Shown piece after piece: positions 9,656 to 53,311 of a stretch of 64,000 nt of DNA (positions are counted from its first letter, which is position 1; each line of letters begins with the position of its first letter). The position numbers and the translations under genes are program-made. This DNA comes from Thermacetogenium phaeum DSM 12270 (GTDB lineage: Bacteria > Bacillota > DSM-12270 > Thermacetogeniales > Thermacetogeniaceae), in the NCBI RefSeq assembly GCF_000305935.1, contig NC_018870.1:885942-949941 (forward strand), in the 5' to 3' direction. The notes under the pieces were generated by a model. It was not told where the DNA came from. It saw only the letters and a program-made list of their open reading frames with translations, and made no database searches.

Positions 9656-9745
9656 GAACTCCTGCCGGCAGCACTGCGGCAGGAGCCCCCTTGCTCCAAA
9701 AATGACGAAAGCCCTCCTCTGCGATAGGAGGGCTTCATTACCCCG
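9656..9745 (-). promoter_or_regulatory. glnA leader with two tandem hairpins (candidate attenuators)
   Basis: Read on the minus strand, the transcript first meets the 8-bp stem GCCCTCCT/AGGAGGGC (9711-9733), followed by TTTCGTCATTTTT, a standard intrinsic terminator shape. About 30 bases later comes a 9-bp stem CTCCTGCCG/CGGCAGGAG (9659-9685), followed by TTCTTTATT. A GGAGC segment between them can pair with the 5' arm of the second stem, so alternative folds are possible. All of this lies between the promoter and the glnA start, so it is positioned for attenuation. The effector is unknown. Confidence 0.5.
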
Positions 9746-9792
9746 GTACAGACAACATCGCCTGAACGAAGGATGTTCTTTTTTCAATCTTT

Positions 9793-11947: not shown

Positions 11948-12244
11948 GAGGTTTATATTTCTGCCATCACCCGCCGGCCGTGTCTGACGGTGGCGGTTCC
12001 CATCCCGGGGATGGGCTCCTTTATTGCCGGCCATACGGGGGAGAAGGTTGCGGAAGCCGGCCGCGATCAGGAGATGATCTTGGTAGCAGGGTTTGATCTG
12101 GATGGAATTGAGGACCGGCGGGCGCAGTGGGGGATTTTCAGGGACCGCAGACCTTGCATGTACGGGAGGATCCTGACCTGCGACGGCACATCGAAGGCGG
12201 CTCTCATGGCAAACCGGCAGGCGGCCGACCCGAGCATCGAGTAA
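11948..12244 (+). pseudogene. C-terminal remnant of a nitrilase-family (carbon-nitrogen hydrolase) gene
   Basis: One frame, opened by a TAA just upstream, reads EVYISAITRRP, GMGSFIAGHTGEKVAEAG and FDLDGIEDRRAQWGIFRDRRP, then CMYGRIL. This is the C-terminal end of nitrilase-superfamily amidases, where G.S.I..P.GEVLAEAG is followed by a D.D....R..W.FFRDRRP.LYG segment. The first ~200 residues, with the Glu-Lys-Cys triad, are absent. Stop and deletion point to a dead gene. Its TAA (12242-12244) lies 3 bp before the nif operator palindrome, so an insertion or deletion may have brought these together. Confidence 0.6.
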
Positions 12245-12247
12245 CGA

Positions 12248-12267
12248 AAAGTATACGTGTATACTTT
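12248..12267. promoter_or_regulatory. Palindromic operator upstream of nifH
   Basis: AAAGTATAC, 2 bases, GTATACTTT: a perfect 9-bp inverted repeat. The same arms with a different 2-base spacer occur at 21225-21244 before amtB, and I find no other copy. It ends 11 bp before a -35-like box and is centred near -57 from the likely start, a position typical for an activator, although a repressor cannot be excluded. The sequence is not the GlnR/TnrA box (TGTNA-N7-TNACA) nor a NifA site. Confidence 0.75.
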
Positions 12268-12278
12268 GCGGAAAGGGG

Positions 12279-12307
12279 TTGTAACGTTGAAAAGTCTGGT
12301 GTAGTAT
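12279..12307 (+). promoter_or_regulatory. Sigma-A-like promoter of the nif operon
   Basis: TTGTAA, 17 bases, TAGTAT, just downstream of the palindrome. The spacing of palindrome to -35 (11 bp) is the same as at the amtB promoter. There is no -24/-12 sigma-54 element near, so nif here is not NifA/RpoN driven as in proteobacteria. Confidence 0.6.
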
Positions 12308-12324
12308 TTACAACAAATTAATAT

Positions 12325-12395
12325 TCCGGTAAGGCAGCCGGAGGATTTGGGATGAGGGAGTCCCCGGAGAACAGCGACGGGGGCTTTTGCATTTA
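12325..12395 (+). terminator. nif leader module 1: GGCAGCC hairpin plus intrinsic terminator T1
   Basis: A small hairpin CCGG/CCGG (12326-12341) displays AAGGCA in its loop. It is followed by GGGATGAGGGAG and then the stem AGTCCCCG/CGGGGGCT (12359-12385) with TTTTGCATTT behind it. This is a credible terminator about 200 bp before the nifH start. The amtB leader has the same order of elements, with GGCAGCC, TTGGGAT, GGAGTCCCCG and CTTT.GCATTT conserved. Confidence 0.65.
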
Positions 12396-12432
12396 AACGG
12401 CGGTTTTGCCGGATCTAAATCGAGCGTAACGC

Positions 12433-12525
12433 CTGTAGACCGCATGGTTGCGGGACCGGCGAGGTGGAGATGCCCCTGCTTGAGGAACGAGGCGGTTCCT
12501 GTAGACGGGGGCTTTTGTGTTTTTA
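12433..12525 (+). terminator. nif leader module 2: terminator T2 enclosing an AGGAAC hairpin
   Basis: CTGTAGACCGCAT opens the module and forms a small CCGCA/TGCGG hairpin. GCCCC (12472) then pairs with GGGGGC (12507-12512), enclosing AGGAAC-GAGGCG-GTTCCT, a 6-bp stem with a six-base loop. TTTTGTGTTTTT follows. The nested design is repeated in the amtB leader. Two terminators in series before nifH imply that transcription into nif needs active antitermination. Confidence 0.65.
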
Positions 12526-12579: not shown

Positions 12580-13413
<834 letters not shown>

Positions 13414-21224: not shown

Positions 21225-21244
21225 AAAGTATACCTGTATACTTT
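21225..21244. promoter_or_regulatory. Palindromic operator upstream of amtB
   Basis: AAAGTATAC, CT, GTATACTTT: arms identical to the nifH operator at 12248-12267. The left half is preceded by another TATACCTG, giving a TATACCTG-N4-TATACCTG direct repeat, possibly an extra half-site. The -35 box begins 11 bp downstream, exactly as at nifH. Identical arms in unrelated flanks argue for conserved protein binding. Confidence 0.75.
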
Positions 21245-21255
21245 GCAATAAAGGG

Positions 21256-21283
21256 TTGATTTGCTGAAGTAATCGAGTATTAT
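21256..21283 (+). promoter_or_regulatory. Sigma-A-like promoter of amtB-glnK
   Basis: TTGATT, 16 bases, TATTAT (or ATTATT with 17). The geometry to the palindrome matches the nif promoter. The transcript would have a leader of ~540 bases before amtB. Confidence 0.6.
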
Positions 21284-21299
21284 TTTTATAAAATGTATT

Positions 21300-21363
21300 A
21301 CCGGTGAGGCAGCCGGTAGTTGGGATAAAGGAGTCCCCGAGAAATTCGGGGGCTTTGCATTTC
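21300..21363 (+). terminator. amtB leader module 1: GGCAGCC hairpin plus intrinsic terminator T1
   Basis: ACCGG/CCGGT (21300-21317) has GAGGCA in the loop. TTGGGATAAAGG follows, then AGTCCCCGA-GAAA-TTCGGGGGCT (21332-21354) and TTTGCATTT. It is closely related in sequence and order to 12325-12395 upstream of nifH. The stem differs by paired changes, supporting selection for structure. Confidence 0.65.
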
Positions 21364-21432
21364 CGGCGGTTGCGAAAGCCATAGGATTTGCGCCGTAATC
21401 CGCAGGGCCGCGGTAACGGCCAGGCAGTGATG

Positions 21433-21480
21433 CCCCTGTTGAGGAACGCAGAGGTTCCTAGAACAGGGGTTTTTCATTTC
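21433..21480 (+). terminator. amtB leader module 2: terminator T2 enclosing an AGGAAC hairpin
   Basis: CCCCTGTT pairs with AACAGGGG (8 bp, 21433-21440 with 21462-21469) around AGGAAC-GCAGAG-GTTCCT, followed by TTTTTCATTTCTT. This is a textbook terminator and the counterpart of 12472-12525. Upstream, GGCCG-CGGTAA-CGGCC can form another small hairpin. Confidence 0.65.
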
Positions 21481-21610
21481 TTAGCTTCGGCATGCCTTTG
21501 GGGTTTGGTTATGATTGCAATTTACTACCTTGTCCTTTTTGTAATATAGCATTGGTCGGCATGGAGTTTCGGGCATGCCGGAAGGGGGATTTTGTTGATG
21601 GAAGGTAAAG

Positions 21611-21700
21611 CTGTAGACCGCATCGCGGTAGAAAGAGGGAGGTAGCGCTACCTCTGTTAGGGTAACGATGGTGTTTCTAACGGAGGTTTGCTTTATCAAA
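21611..21700 (+). promoter_or_regulatory. amtB leader module 3: mutually exclusive hairpins
   Basis: CTGTAGACCGCAT (21611-21623) is identical to 13 bases in the nif leader. After it, GAGGTAGCGCTACCTC forms one hairpin. The same ACCTC arm can instead open the 11-bp stem ACCTCTGTTAG/CTAACGGAGGT (with one G-U pair), followed by TTTGCTTT. The two folds exclude each other, which is the logic of a terminator/antiterminator switch. The nif leader has no obvious equivalent of the last hairpin. Confidence 0.45.
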
Positions 21701-21828
21701 AACTTGGTCATGAAAGGGGGGATTTCGAATTAGTAGACATTATGAAAAATACCAGAAAGAGGAGGTAAGGATCGGTTAATCTGTTAGTTAAAAGATGGGA
21801 GCAATTTGTCTTGAAGGAGGTAAAAAGA

Positions 21829-23226
21829 ATGAAAAAGGCGCGAACCTTTCTGGTAATCTTCAATATCTTTCTTATGGTATTGCTCTTTTTCAGCTTTGTC
21901 TCGATTGCTCTGGCGGCCGACCCCACGGGAGCGGAAACCTTGAAGGGGAATGAGGATGCTCCTGTTGACTACATCTGGGTGCTAATCTCAGGATTTTTGG
22001 TCTTCTTTATGCAGGCGGGTTTTGCGATGGTGGAGGCCGGGTTCTGCAGGGCCAAGAACGCCACAAACCTGCTCAGCAAGAACCTGATCGACCTCGTTGT
22101 GGCCTCCCTCGTTTTGTTTGCCGTTGGTTACGGATTCCTCAAAGGCAAGGATGTGGCGGGGTTTATCGGAACGGGAAACTGGTTTCTTCACGGGGATGCC
22201 TATGATGTGGGGGTTTACCTTGATTTCTTCTGGCAACTGGTCTTCTGTGGCACTGCGGCCACGATCGTTTCCGGGGCGGTTGCCGAACGGCTCAAGTTCC
22301 CGGCTTATCTGCTCTATACCTTTTTCGTCAGCCTGATCATTTACCCCATTTACGCCCACTGGGTATGGGGCGGCGGCTGGCTCTCGCAGCTGCCGTTTGG
22401 TCTGGGGCATTTGGACTTTGCAGGTTCCGGGGTGGTTCACGCCGTCGGCGGGATGGTCGGCCTGGCGGGTGCCATCGTACTCGGGCCGCGTTTCGGCAAG
22501 TACGGGCGGGACGGCAAGCCGCGCCCCATTATCGGCCATAATATGGCTCTTGCCGCACTGGGCACCTTTATTCTCTGGTTCGGCTGGTTCGGGTTTAACC
22601 CCGGCAGCACCTTTAGCGCCCACCATCTCAGAATTGCCGTGGTGGCCGTGAACACGAACCTGGCTGCGGCGGCGGGCGCTCTGACGGCATTGATTGTGGT
22701 GTACCTTAAAACCCGGAAGTGGGACCTGGGTATGGCCTTAAACGGCACCCTGGGCGGACTGGTGGCCGTCACTGCGCCCTGTGCCTGGGTGGAGGCATGG
22801 GCGGCCGTGGTAATCGGAGCGTTTGCCGGACTCATCGTCGTGGCCGGCGTATACTTCCTGGAATCCCGGGGGGTTGATGACCCCGTGGGTGCGGTGAGCG
22901 TTCACGGCTTTTGCGGGATCTGGGGTTTGATCAGCGTTGGGTTGTTTGCTGACGGCACTTACGGCATCTATTCCACCGAAACGCCCTTTGTTACAGGACT
23001 TTTCTATGGGGGAGGCTTCGGTCAGCTGCTCGCCCAGCTCATCGGTGTTCTCTGTGTTGCGGTGTGGGCTTTTGGGTTGGGCTACTTGATGTTCAAGGGT
23101 ATGGATCTGCTCTTCGGTATCAGGGTATCCCCGGAGGAAGAGTTGATCGGTCTGGATGTCCCCGAACATGGGACTCCGGCCTATCCGGAGTTTCAGCGCC
23201 AGCGCACAACGGTGCTAAATGTATAA
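21829..23226 (+). CDS. amtB: Ammonium transporter
   Basis: A 465-residue Amt/Rh-family channel. After an N-terminal hydrophobic stretch ending IALAA (a probable signal peptide, as in many Amt proteins) come about 11 transmembrane segments. Family motifs include DYIWVLISGFLVFFMQAGFA, MVEAGFCRAKN, the twin pore His in GSGVVHAVGG and DPVGAVSVHGFCGIWG, and FGWFGFNPGS. ATG 21829 follows AAGGAGGTAAAAAGA. The PII gene glnK lies 49 bp downstream, the classical pairing in which PII plugs the channel. It imports ammonium under nitrogen limitation, consistent with sharing the nif operator. Confidence 0.95.
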   Translation: MKKARTFLVIFNIFLMVLLFFSFVSIALAADPTGAETLKGNEDAPVDYIWVLISGFLVFFMQAGFAMVEAGFCRAKNATNLLSKNLIDLVVASLVLFAVGYGFLKGKDVAGFIGTGNWFLHGDAYDVGVYLDFFWQLVFCGTAATIVSGAVAERLKFPAYLLYTFFVSLIIYPIYAHWVWGGGWLSQLPFGLGHLDFAGSGVVHAVGGMVGLAGAIVLGPRFGKYGRDGKPRPIIGHNMALAALGTFILWFGWFGFNPGSTFSAHHLRIAVVAVNTNLAAAAGALTALIVVYLKTRKWDLGMALNGTLGGLVAVTAPCAWVEAWAAVVIGAFAGLIVVAGVYFLESRGVDDPVGAVSVHGFCGIWGLISVGLFADGTYGIYSTETPFVTGLFYGGGFGQLLAQLIGVLCVAVWAFGLGYLMFKGMDLLFGIRVSPEEELIGLDVPEHGTPAYPEFQRQRTTVLNV

Positions 23227-23275
23227 TGATGATTTAAAGGATTGAGGGTATGAGTTGCAGAAAGGAGGGGTTTTT

Positions 23276-23614
23276 TTGTTCAAATTGGAGATTATCGTTC
23301 GAGAGGAAAGAGTTGAAGAGGTAATTGAAGCGCTCAAAGGTACCGGTTACCCGGGTTTGTCGATTATGTCAATCGAGGGACGGGGGCAGCAAAACGGGAT
23401 TCAAGAGCAATTCCGCGGGCGGTCGTACATCATACCCTTTCTTCCTAAGAAAAAGGTAGAGATCTTGATCAGGGAAGAGGATCTGGAAAAGGTTAAAAAC
23501 GCCGTAATCAAAGCCGCCCGGACCGGCGAACCCGGGGACGGGAAGATCTTTGTGATGCCGGTAGTGGATGTGATCCGGATCCGCACCGGAGAGAGGGGGG
23601 AAGGCGCCATTTAA
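23276..23614 (+). CDS. glnK: PII nitrogen signal protein GlnK
   Basis: A 112-residue PII protein: KLEIIVREERVEEVIEAL start, B-loop TGEPGDGKIFV and the C-terminal IRIRTGERG. In the T-loop the usual uridylylated Tyr (ELYRG) is replaced by Phe (EQFRGRSY), so UMP modification is not possible at that site and signalling should rest on ATP/ADP and 2-oxoglutarate. I take TTG 23276, 7 bases after AAAGGAGG; an upstream start would swallow the ribosome site. Linkage to amtB defines it as GlnK rather than NifI. A strong terminator follows. Confidence 0.92.
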   Translation: MFKLEIIVREERVEEVIEALKGTGYPGLSIMSIEGRGQQNGIQEQFRGRSYIIPFLPKKKVEILIREEDLEKVKNAVIKAARTGEPGDGKIFVMPVVDVIRIRTGERGEGAI

Positions 23615-52051: not shown

Positions 52052-53311
52052 CTATCTTATCTTCAGTGACCTGGTGAGCAGACCGGAGTGCTCTAAGGAG
52101 AAATCTGCCTGGATATCCACATTAACGTAAGGGAAGGTCTCTTCCCAGCGGTTCTCGATCTTCCTCCAAACCTGGGGATGGGTGCGGTGGAGTTTATCAC
52201 CGAACCCGAAGACATCGGACCTTAGTCCCTTGGCTCTGGCTACGGCATTCCGGCAGCGCCGCTCCACCTCCCGGTTGATCAGAGCCTCCATTTTTTTGAC
52301 ATCTCCTCTCTTTGTAATATCAACGGTTTCCGGTGCTGTTGCTATCAATTCTCCTGTTCCCTTAATTTTAACCTGAAAGGCGATTCCCGTCCTTTTGACT
52401 ATCGGTTTTACTTTGGTACGGACATCGCGAAAGAGATAGGATGCGTTATCCTGGGTGGAATTGAAGGCCAGTGGAATTATTCCTCCCTGTGCCTCATCTC
52501 TGATGAACATTAGCCCCTGGGTTTCTACCTCATTTAATCGCCCCACCGCTCGATCGCCTCGGAAGGCCATAACTCCGGTCACAGAAAAAGTCTTCTGCTG
52601 GGGTTGGTTCCTATCACCGGACTCTTTTCCCCCCGCCCCTTGAGCCCCCTGCCTGATGGTCGATCCTTTTTCCGGTGGTATGAAGGTTTTCAGGAAGGCC
52701 AGGGTTGTTTCTATCCCGGGGGTCATGAGGTCGTACATCACCTGAAGAAGATTCCTTCCCCTTGTTTTCGAAGTAAATAATTTATTCAGGTTAAGTATAT
52801 TATAGGCCTCAGTGGCAAGCAGCGGTTCGAACTCGGGAATGGCCTGGAGACAGTCCCGAGCCTGCCCCTGGCAGACCACCACCATCGCCCGCTTGGGAAT
52901 ATCCCGGTTGCGGTTGCCGAAATCGATCACCCGGCCGATCCCTTCTCTGGCAACGGTCTCCCCGATCACAATAAGCACGGTATGGGCCATGAAGAGCTGC
53001 CTGGAGGAGCGCATGTTCCAGTTGCGCACCGCGTCCTGGATGGTCTCCCCGGTGACCGAAATGACCTGCCCGGGACTTGTTTCCGGTGACTGGCCTGTGT
53101 TCCCTCCGCTCCTGACCCCGGCGGCTCGGGTCGGCCTGAGCGTGAGCACGGAGAGCAGGATTTTGGGCCGTCCGTTGGTGGTGGTCCGGTCAATACCGAT
53201 GGCAGAATTGATGGTCAGAGTCTGTATTTCCCTCCTGCTCCAGCACCCGGAGGTGGAAAGGAGCAAAATGACCAGTAAGATGCTCAATGTTCGGCGGTTC
53301 AACACGATCAT
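52052..53311 (-). CDS. Spore germination lipoprotein GerKC family (operon 2)
   Basis: A 419-residue lipoprotein, C subunit of a germinant receptor. The signal and lipobox read LLLSTSGCWSRRE; EIQTLTINSAIGID and FGNRNRDIPKRAMVVVC follow, and the end carries SDVFGFGDKLHRTHPQVWRK, the GerAC C-terminal motif. ATG 53311 overlaps the gerKB stop (ATGA); a longer upstream frame lies within gerKB and lacks a signal peptide. It is intact, unlike the copy at 26626. A Gly/Gln/Ser-rich low-complexity stretch occurs near residue 245. Confidence 0.92.
   Translation of the reverse strand: MIVLNRRTLSILLVILLLSTSGCWSRREIQTLTINSAIGIDRTTTNGRPKILLSVLTLRPTRAAGVRSGGNTGQSPETSPGQVISVTGETIQDAVRNWNMRSSRQLFMAHTVLIVIGETVAREGIGRVIDFGNRNRDIPKRAMVVVCQGQARDCLQAIPEFEPLLATEAYNILNLNKLFTSKTRGRNLLQVMYDLMTPGIETTLAFLKTFIPPEKGSTIRQGAQGAGGKESGDRNQPQQKTFSVTGVMAFRGDRAVGRLNEVETQGLMFIRDEAQGGIIPLAFNSTQDNASYLFRDVRTKVKPIVKRTGIAFQVKIKGTGELIATAPETVDITKRGDVKKMEALINREVERRCRNAVARAKGLRSDVFGFGDKLHRTHPQVWRKIENRWEETFPYVNVDIQADFSLEHSGLLTRSLKIR

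Follow-up and report, generated by a model that had tools for sequence, protein, structure and literature searches.

Tandem ANTAR-type antiterminator leaders predicted to control nifH and amtB in Thermacetogenium phaeum

Described ANTAR systems and the leaders of nifH and amtB

The dual-hexaloop mechanism of ANTAR antitermination was established by Ramesh et al. in 2012 (PMC3369931). In EutV/eut of Enterococcus faecalis, NasR/nasF of Klebsiella and AmiR/amiE of Pseudomonas, as presented in the sections of that paper used here, two hairpins (P1 and P2) carry hexaloops with G at the fourth position (G4), the 3' strand of P2 is shared with an intrinsic terminator, and the modules serve nitrogen genes, several per transcription unit. 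The same sections predict ANTAR leaders before nitrogenase, amt, PII, and glutamate and glutamine synthase genes, again several per unit, and their Fig. 9 gives predicted regulons for the Pelobacter carbinolicus nitrogenase and for Desulfotomaculum acetoxidans (13 sites in six units). In the EutV-RNA structure of 2022, G4 is the sole base-specific contact (PMC8934654). A Clostridium antiterminator linked to ammonia assimilation, NitR, is mentioned in PMC4676874, and the case described in that mention adds an antisense RNA.

Compared with these systems, the leaders of nifH and amtB in T. phaeum DSM 12270 share the P1/P2 hexaloop hairpins, G4, the terminator overlap, the gene classes and, as with NitR, the likely link to ammonia assimilation, and their P1-P2 linker is short, as in eut (5-12 nt in the cited sections of PMC3369931). 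They also have several features of their own. First, the EutV, NasR and AmiR targets described there have A at loop position 1, whereas A or G is found here, which fits G4 being the only base-specific contact in the EutV structure. Second, two modules stand in a fixed order before one gene, and a third hexaloop, P3, occupies the apex of the second terminator. Third, the likely partner is an ANTAR protein with a degenerate receiver, encoded with glnA. The sections of PMC3369931 consulted, which deal with other organisms, do not describe a nifH/amtB cassette with P3 and an upstream palindrome. An earlier note on this DNA had read the tandem terminators as antitermination control of nitrogen fixation, beyond the known NifI control; the novelty is smaller than it implied, since those sections already predict nitrogenase ANTAR leaders, and what differs is the purine in place of A1, P3 and the glnA-linked pseudo-receiver.

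The genome searched is a single contig of 2,939,057 bases, and the 64 kb stretch of it treated here is called the window; coordinates refer to the window unless otherwise marked. The nifH leader (12324-12524) and the amtB leader (21298-21474), both on the forward strand, each consist of two ANTAR-type antiterminator modules in series, in the order P1a, linker, P2a, T1 and then P1b, linker, P2b, T2. In the nifH leader, the descriptor search described below and folding placed P1a, CCGGT[AAGGCA]GCCGG, at 12326-12341 (stem extendable to 12324-12343), and the descriptor placed P2a, GGGAT[GAGGGA]GTCCC, at 12349-12364, P1b, CCGC[ATGGTT]GCGG, at 12440-12453, and P2b, GGT[GGAGAT]GCC, at 12463-12474. 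Folds and terminator searches placed T1, GTCCCCG...CGGGGGC plus TTTTGCATTT, at 12360-12394 and T2, GCCCC...GGGGGC plus a T tract, at 12472-12524. By the same means, the amtB leader was resolved into P1a, CCGGT[GAGGCA]GCCGG (21301-21316), P2a, GGGAT[AAAGGA]GTCCC (21322-21337), T1 (21333-21362), P1b, CCGC[AGGGCC]GCGG (21400-21413), P2b, GGC[AGTGAT]GCC (21423-21434), and T2 (21432-21474), all on the forward strand. The downstream genes, on the same strand, are nifH (12586-13413; Pfam Fer4_NifH, E 9e-122), the first gene of nifH-I1-I2-D-K and followed by two PII genes according to Pfam, and amtB (21811-23226; Pfam Ammonium_transp, E 4e-126), with a PII gene behind it (23255-23614; Pfam P-II, E 9e-25).

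All eight P1 and P2 hexaloops of the two leaders have a purine at position 1 (A, G, A, G in nifH and G, A, A, A in amtB, in leader order) together with G4, and G replaces the A1 of the published ANTAR-target consensus in about half of the loops. The P1a-P2a linker is 7 bases in nifH and 5 in amtB, with 5-bp stems, and the P1b-P2b linker is 9 bases; the P2b stems have just 3 bp, which, like the G at position 1, counts against the ANTAR reading. At both T1 and T2, the 5' strand of the terminator is the 3' strand of the preceding P2, so that P2 and terminator are mutually exclusive. The earlier note had reported two terminators in series shared by both leaders, and these are present where it placed them, with the loops it named. 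It had recognized the terminators and some of the loops and had overlooked P2a, P1b and P2b, whose presence turns what would be mere terminators into switches. Its description of the loops as loosely like ANTAR targets was right and understated, because two of the four loops it compared, GAGGCG and GCAGAG, are P3 loops in the T2 apex and not antiterminator loops.

From this anatomy, the following mechanism can be proposed. RNA polymerase would start just upstream of P1a, and P1, folding first, could recruit an ANTAR dimer. An active ANTAR protein would hold P2 closed and thereby keep its 3' strand occupied, so that no terminator forms and transcription reads through; without active ANTAR protein, P2 would give way to the stronger terminator, ending the transcript. 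The same decision would be made again at module b, and since two rescues would be required, leakage should be lower and the response steeper. If this holds, an elongation checkpoint is added to the control of nitrogen fixation, beside the control of enzyme activity by NifI.

Descriptor, folding and family evidence

A descriptor requiring two hexaloop hairpins with a purine at position 1 and G4, the second overlapping a terminator stem, gave 6 matches in the 64 kb window, compared with a mean of 0.34 and a maximum of 2 in 50 dinucleotide shuffles; this comparison is that of a tuned descriptor, since its T-run rule was loosened with the targets already known. An earlier version with a strict T-run rule had missed nifH and amtB because GC interrupts their U-tracts. 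The matches are the four nifH/amtB modules, one module before glnA and a site at 52884 on the reverse strand, which is most likely due to chance. More sites were returned by a second descriptor based on folds, but its null was higher, at 1.9 per window. In stand-alone folds, the z-scores were -4.2 and -3.3 for nifH modules a and b and -5.9 and -5.3 for those of amtB; at the a modules these folds contained P1 and T1, and at the b modules T2 with its apical stems. In the lowest-energy folds of all four modules no P2 hairpin was formed, so the P2 5' strand lay outside any such hairpin.

A covariance model (R1) was built from nine modules, which partly included the nifH and amtB modules of this genome. 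In the whole genome it matched these four modules only (E 5e-5 to 6e-4), and among 20 family genomes it found modules in 9. The model was too narrow to recover the modules of glnA, the glutamate-synthase (glt) operon and the ANTAR genes in this genome; these were found with Python descriptors, except that of ANTAR1, which was recognized by eye. The earlier claim that the stems vary by paired changes was borne out in part: P1 (GC/CG), P2 (AU/GC) and the outer pair of P3 (AU/GC) show double changes, while most of the variation is one-sided, from G-C to G-U. In a mixed set of modules (A2), used in place of a MAFFT alignment that had misaligned P1 in mixed, long-linker modules, double-change cells exceeded the shuffles (0/500). 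In two sets of close relatives taken separately (A3 and A4), covariation was not above shuffles. Of what had been expected from relatives, homologous leaders were thus found and covariation among close relatives was weak, and the case rests on loop constancy, terminator overlap and recurrence.

The nifH leaders of relatives were gathered through NifH protein similarity, independently of the RNA, and the same logic was found in contigs of Moorella, Carboxydothermus, Desulfofundulus, Desulfotomaculum and Desulforudis. When terminators were located first and P2 hairpins were then sought without any condition on loop sequence, 13 of the 14 best six-base-loop P2 hairpins had a purine at position 1 and G4. 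G4 is present in 15/15 family copies of both P1b and P2b, and across all five hexaloops (P3 included) it is kept while the adjacent loop bases vary. In this small family set, an ANTAR gene is present in every genome with R1-model matches (9/9) and in 4/11 without (Fisher p 0.004, with genomes treated as unrelated).

These data also bear on the possibility that the leaders are metabolite riboswitches for glutamine or 2-oxoglutarate, controlling the terminators without a protein. The nitrogen genes downstream and the position of the terminators under conserved upstream structure would suit such a switch. However, Rfam gave no match in the window at gathering thresholds, and hence none to the known glutamine riboswitch families, and the conserved parts are small hairpins with purine-1/G4 loops and a variable linker rather than an aptamer core, which makes a riboswitch very improbable. 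With high confidence, we regard the leaders as serial pairs of ANTAR-dependent antiterminators, and most likely nitrogen fixation is allowed or blocked through them after transcription has started. That an ANTAR protein controls nif and amtB through antitermination, as had been proposed before, is the best reading of the exclusive P2 and terminator, G4, the homologous leaders, the ANTAR genes and the glnA linkage. A prediction of ANTAR control of nitrogenase in Firmicutes is thereby turned into a precise, mutable target in a finished genome.

A hexaloop at the apex of the second terminator

A search of terminator apices located P3, AGGAAC[GAGGCG]GTTCCT, in T2 of the nifH leader (12483-12500, forward strand), and its counterpart, AGGAAC[GCAGAG]GTTCCT, in T2 of the amtB leader (21442-21459, forward strand). 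Throughout the family, the apex of the b-type terminator is a stem ending in GGAAC/GTTC that closes a six-base loop. When loops of 3-12 bases were allowed, all 15 sense-strand terminators with such an apex had a six-base loop with G4, in 11 distinct loop sequences, and all but one of the 15 copies had a purine at position 1. In the leader of the glutamate-synthase operon, the apical stem, formed around GAGGCA, is unrelated to these.

We also considered whether P3 is general to ANTAR terminators. That idea was weakened: G4 occurred in 15/25 apical hexaloops of P2-linked terminators compared with 28/95 of others (p 0.005, related copies included), and related copies account for many of the 15. 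Since these copies are not independent, P3 is taken as a likely but unproven additional ANTAR site. P3 was not found in the open-licence literature searched, which, given this coverage, is a weak sign of novelty. A further proposal, which we put forward tentatively and consider doubtful, is that P3 works as a third ANTAR hexaloop within the terminator, and that a kinase-independent ANTAR protein with a pseudo-receiver, encoded together with glutamine synthetase, reads the P1-P2-P3 array, which would directly couple the state of glutamine synthetase to transcription elongation in the nif, amt and gln operons. Should P3 or the glnA-linked pseudo-receiver act in the proposed way, both the minimal ANTAR target and the view of nitrogen sensing by ANTAR proteins would have to be revised. 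Just upstream of nifH in some leaders (L011, L026, L029 and L033), inspection by eye revealed P2 together with a G4 hexaloop at the terminator apex, and no obvious P1; perhaps P2-P3 replaces P1-P2 in these leaders.

Upstream elements, ANTAR proteins and the candidate regulon

A putative sigma-A promoter of amtB, TTGATT-16-TATTAT, was found by promoter scan at 21256-21283 (forward strand), and by analogy a putative promoter of nifH, TTGTAA-17-TAGTAT, was assigned to 12279-12307 (forward strand; below the scan threshold), with a start at about 12314. A palindrome, AAGTATAC-GT-GTATACTT, a probable operator, lies at 12249-12266 (exact match), and a genome scan placed the same palindrome upstream of amtB (21226-21243) and before the operon of ANTAR3 and glnA2 (G000:C1:1324700-1324717). 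Its start is 75-77 bases upstream of P1a in nifH and amtB; at ANTAR3 it is more distant, with about 100 bases between it and the likely promoter. Upstream of nifH, at about 12060-12244, the translation contains a C-terminal remnant resembling N-carbamoylputrescine amidase, and a longer ORF of this kind was read at L004:2237-4210.

The position of these elements is relevant to the view that termination at T1 and T2 is constitutive and insulates nifH and amtB against transcription arriving from upstream, with incidental hexaloops. Strong intrinsic terminators directly upstream of both genes are what insulation would need. However, the putative promoters and the palindrome stand upstream of the terminators, the promoter scan gave no promoter-like site between T2 and nifH and one weak site between T2 and amtB (21487-21515), and G4 is constant while its neighbours vary; insulation is therefore hardly credible. 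The long gap between T2 and amtB also contains a short inverted repeat, GAGGTAGCGCTACCTC (21639-21654). As for other nitrogen regulators, NrpR is absent from the genome, RpoN is encoded, and no -24/-12 element was found near the nifH or amtB leader; the lack of NrpR and of such an element speaks for the ANTAR reading.

The search for ANTAR-domain regulators suggested in the earlier note yielded three proteins (E 4e-24 to 1e-21), and Pfam identified glnA, asnB, two ANTAR proteins with receiver-like domains and a second glnA. The gene of ANTAR1, a pseudo-receiver protein, lies next to glutamate-synthase genes, 0.7 kb upstream of the window; the receiver of ANTAR2 is intact, and a sensor kinase is encoded beside it; and ANTAR3 (L003), also with a pseudo-receiver, is encoded directly upstream of glnA2. 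At the receiver sites examined (acidic pair, phospho-Asp, Thr/Ser and Lys), ANTAR3 has K, A, E, V, E and ANTAR1 has I, S, D, V, L, so neither has an intact EutV-type receiver, and the acidic pair is retained in 0/19 glnA-linked ANTAR proteins. The ANTAR domains proper are well conserved. Because their receivers are degenerate, control of ANTAR3 and ANTAR1 by a histidine kinase seems unlikely from these residues, and control through a protein or small-molecule partner, by analogy with AmiR, would be more likely.

From the linkage data, we infer that ANTAR3 is probably the partner of the nifH and amtB leaders. The same RNA switch might instead be served mainly by ANTAR1, which is physically the nearest and whose own gene and next operon have matching leaders, or by ANTAR2 with its intact receiver and adjoining kinase. 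Against both, 8 of the 9 genomes with R1-model matches have the glnA-linked ANTAR3 type as their sole ANTAR gene, and the 18-bp palindrome (AAGTATAC-NN-GTATACTT) occurs at only three genomic sites at <=2 mismatches, namely nifH, amtB and ANTAR3-glnA2, which links ANTAR3 to the two leaders. A main role for ANTAR1 or ANTAR2 is accordingly rather unlikely. The palindrome also suggests a second, DNA-level control layer on these three operons. It is also present before ANTAR-type modules in relatives (L004, L109 and L115), and in L004 two modules lie 76 and 89 bases downstream of its start.

Modules were also found at other nitrogen genes. A single module before glnA (9711-9764, reverse strand; descriptor) has P1 CAGGC[GATGTT]GTCTG, P2 GGGGT[AATGAA]GCCCT and a terminator. 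At the glutamate-synthase operon, outside the window (L001:1764-1851), P1 is GGGGTAC[GAAGGT]GTATCCC and P2, overlapping the terminator, is GAGGGC[AACGGC]GTCTTC. Also outside the window, the ANTAR3 gene has P1 TCCC[AAAGGC]GGGA and P2 GGGC[AAAGGT]GTCC, which again overlaps a terminator. Before the probable GTG start of ANTAR1 (L001:1120), a P2-like hexaloop hairpin overlapping a terminator, GGGGC[AAAGGC]GTCCC, was recognized by eye at L001:1044-1095, with no P1 found by eye in this leader, suggesting possible autoregulation of ANTAR1. The list of modules outside the window is incomplete, so the regulon members are a lower bound. If ANTAR3 is active under nitrogen limitation, nif, amtB, both glnA genes and the glutamate-synthase operon most likely form one nitrogen regulon with ANTAR3 as the proposed partner, and the nif, amtB, gln and glt genes would come under one RNA-level switch.

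In relatives, modules also precede amtB/PII and, judging from translations, alanine racemase-like and amino-acid permease-like genes. Among these relatives (L105, L108 and L114), modules also stand before genes whose translations resemble a chemotaxis receptor and an EAL-domain protein, hinting that the same RNA switch could tie motility to nitrogen state.
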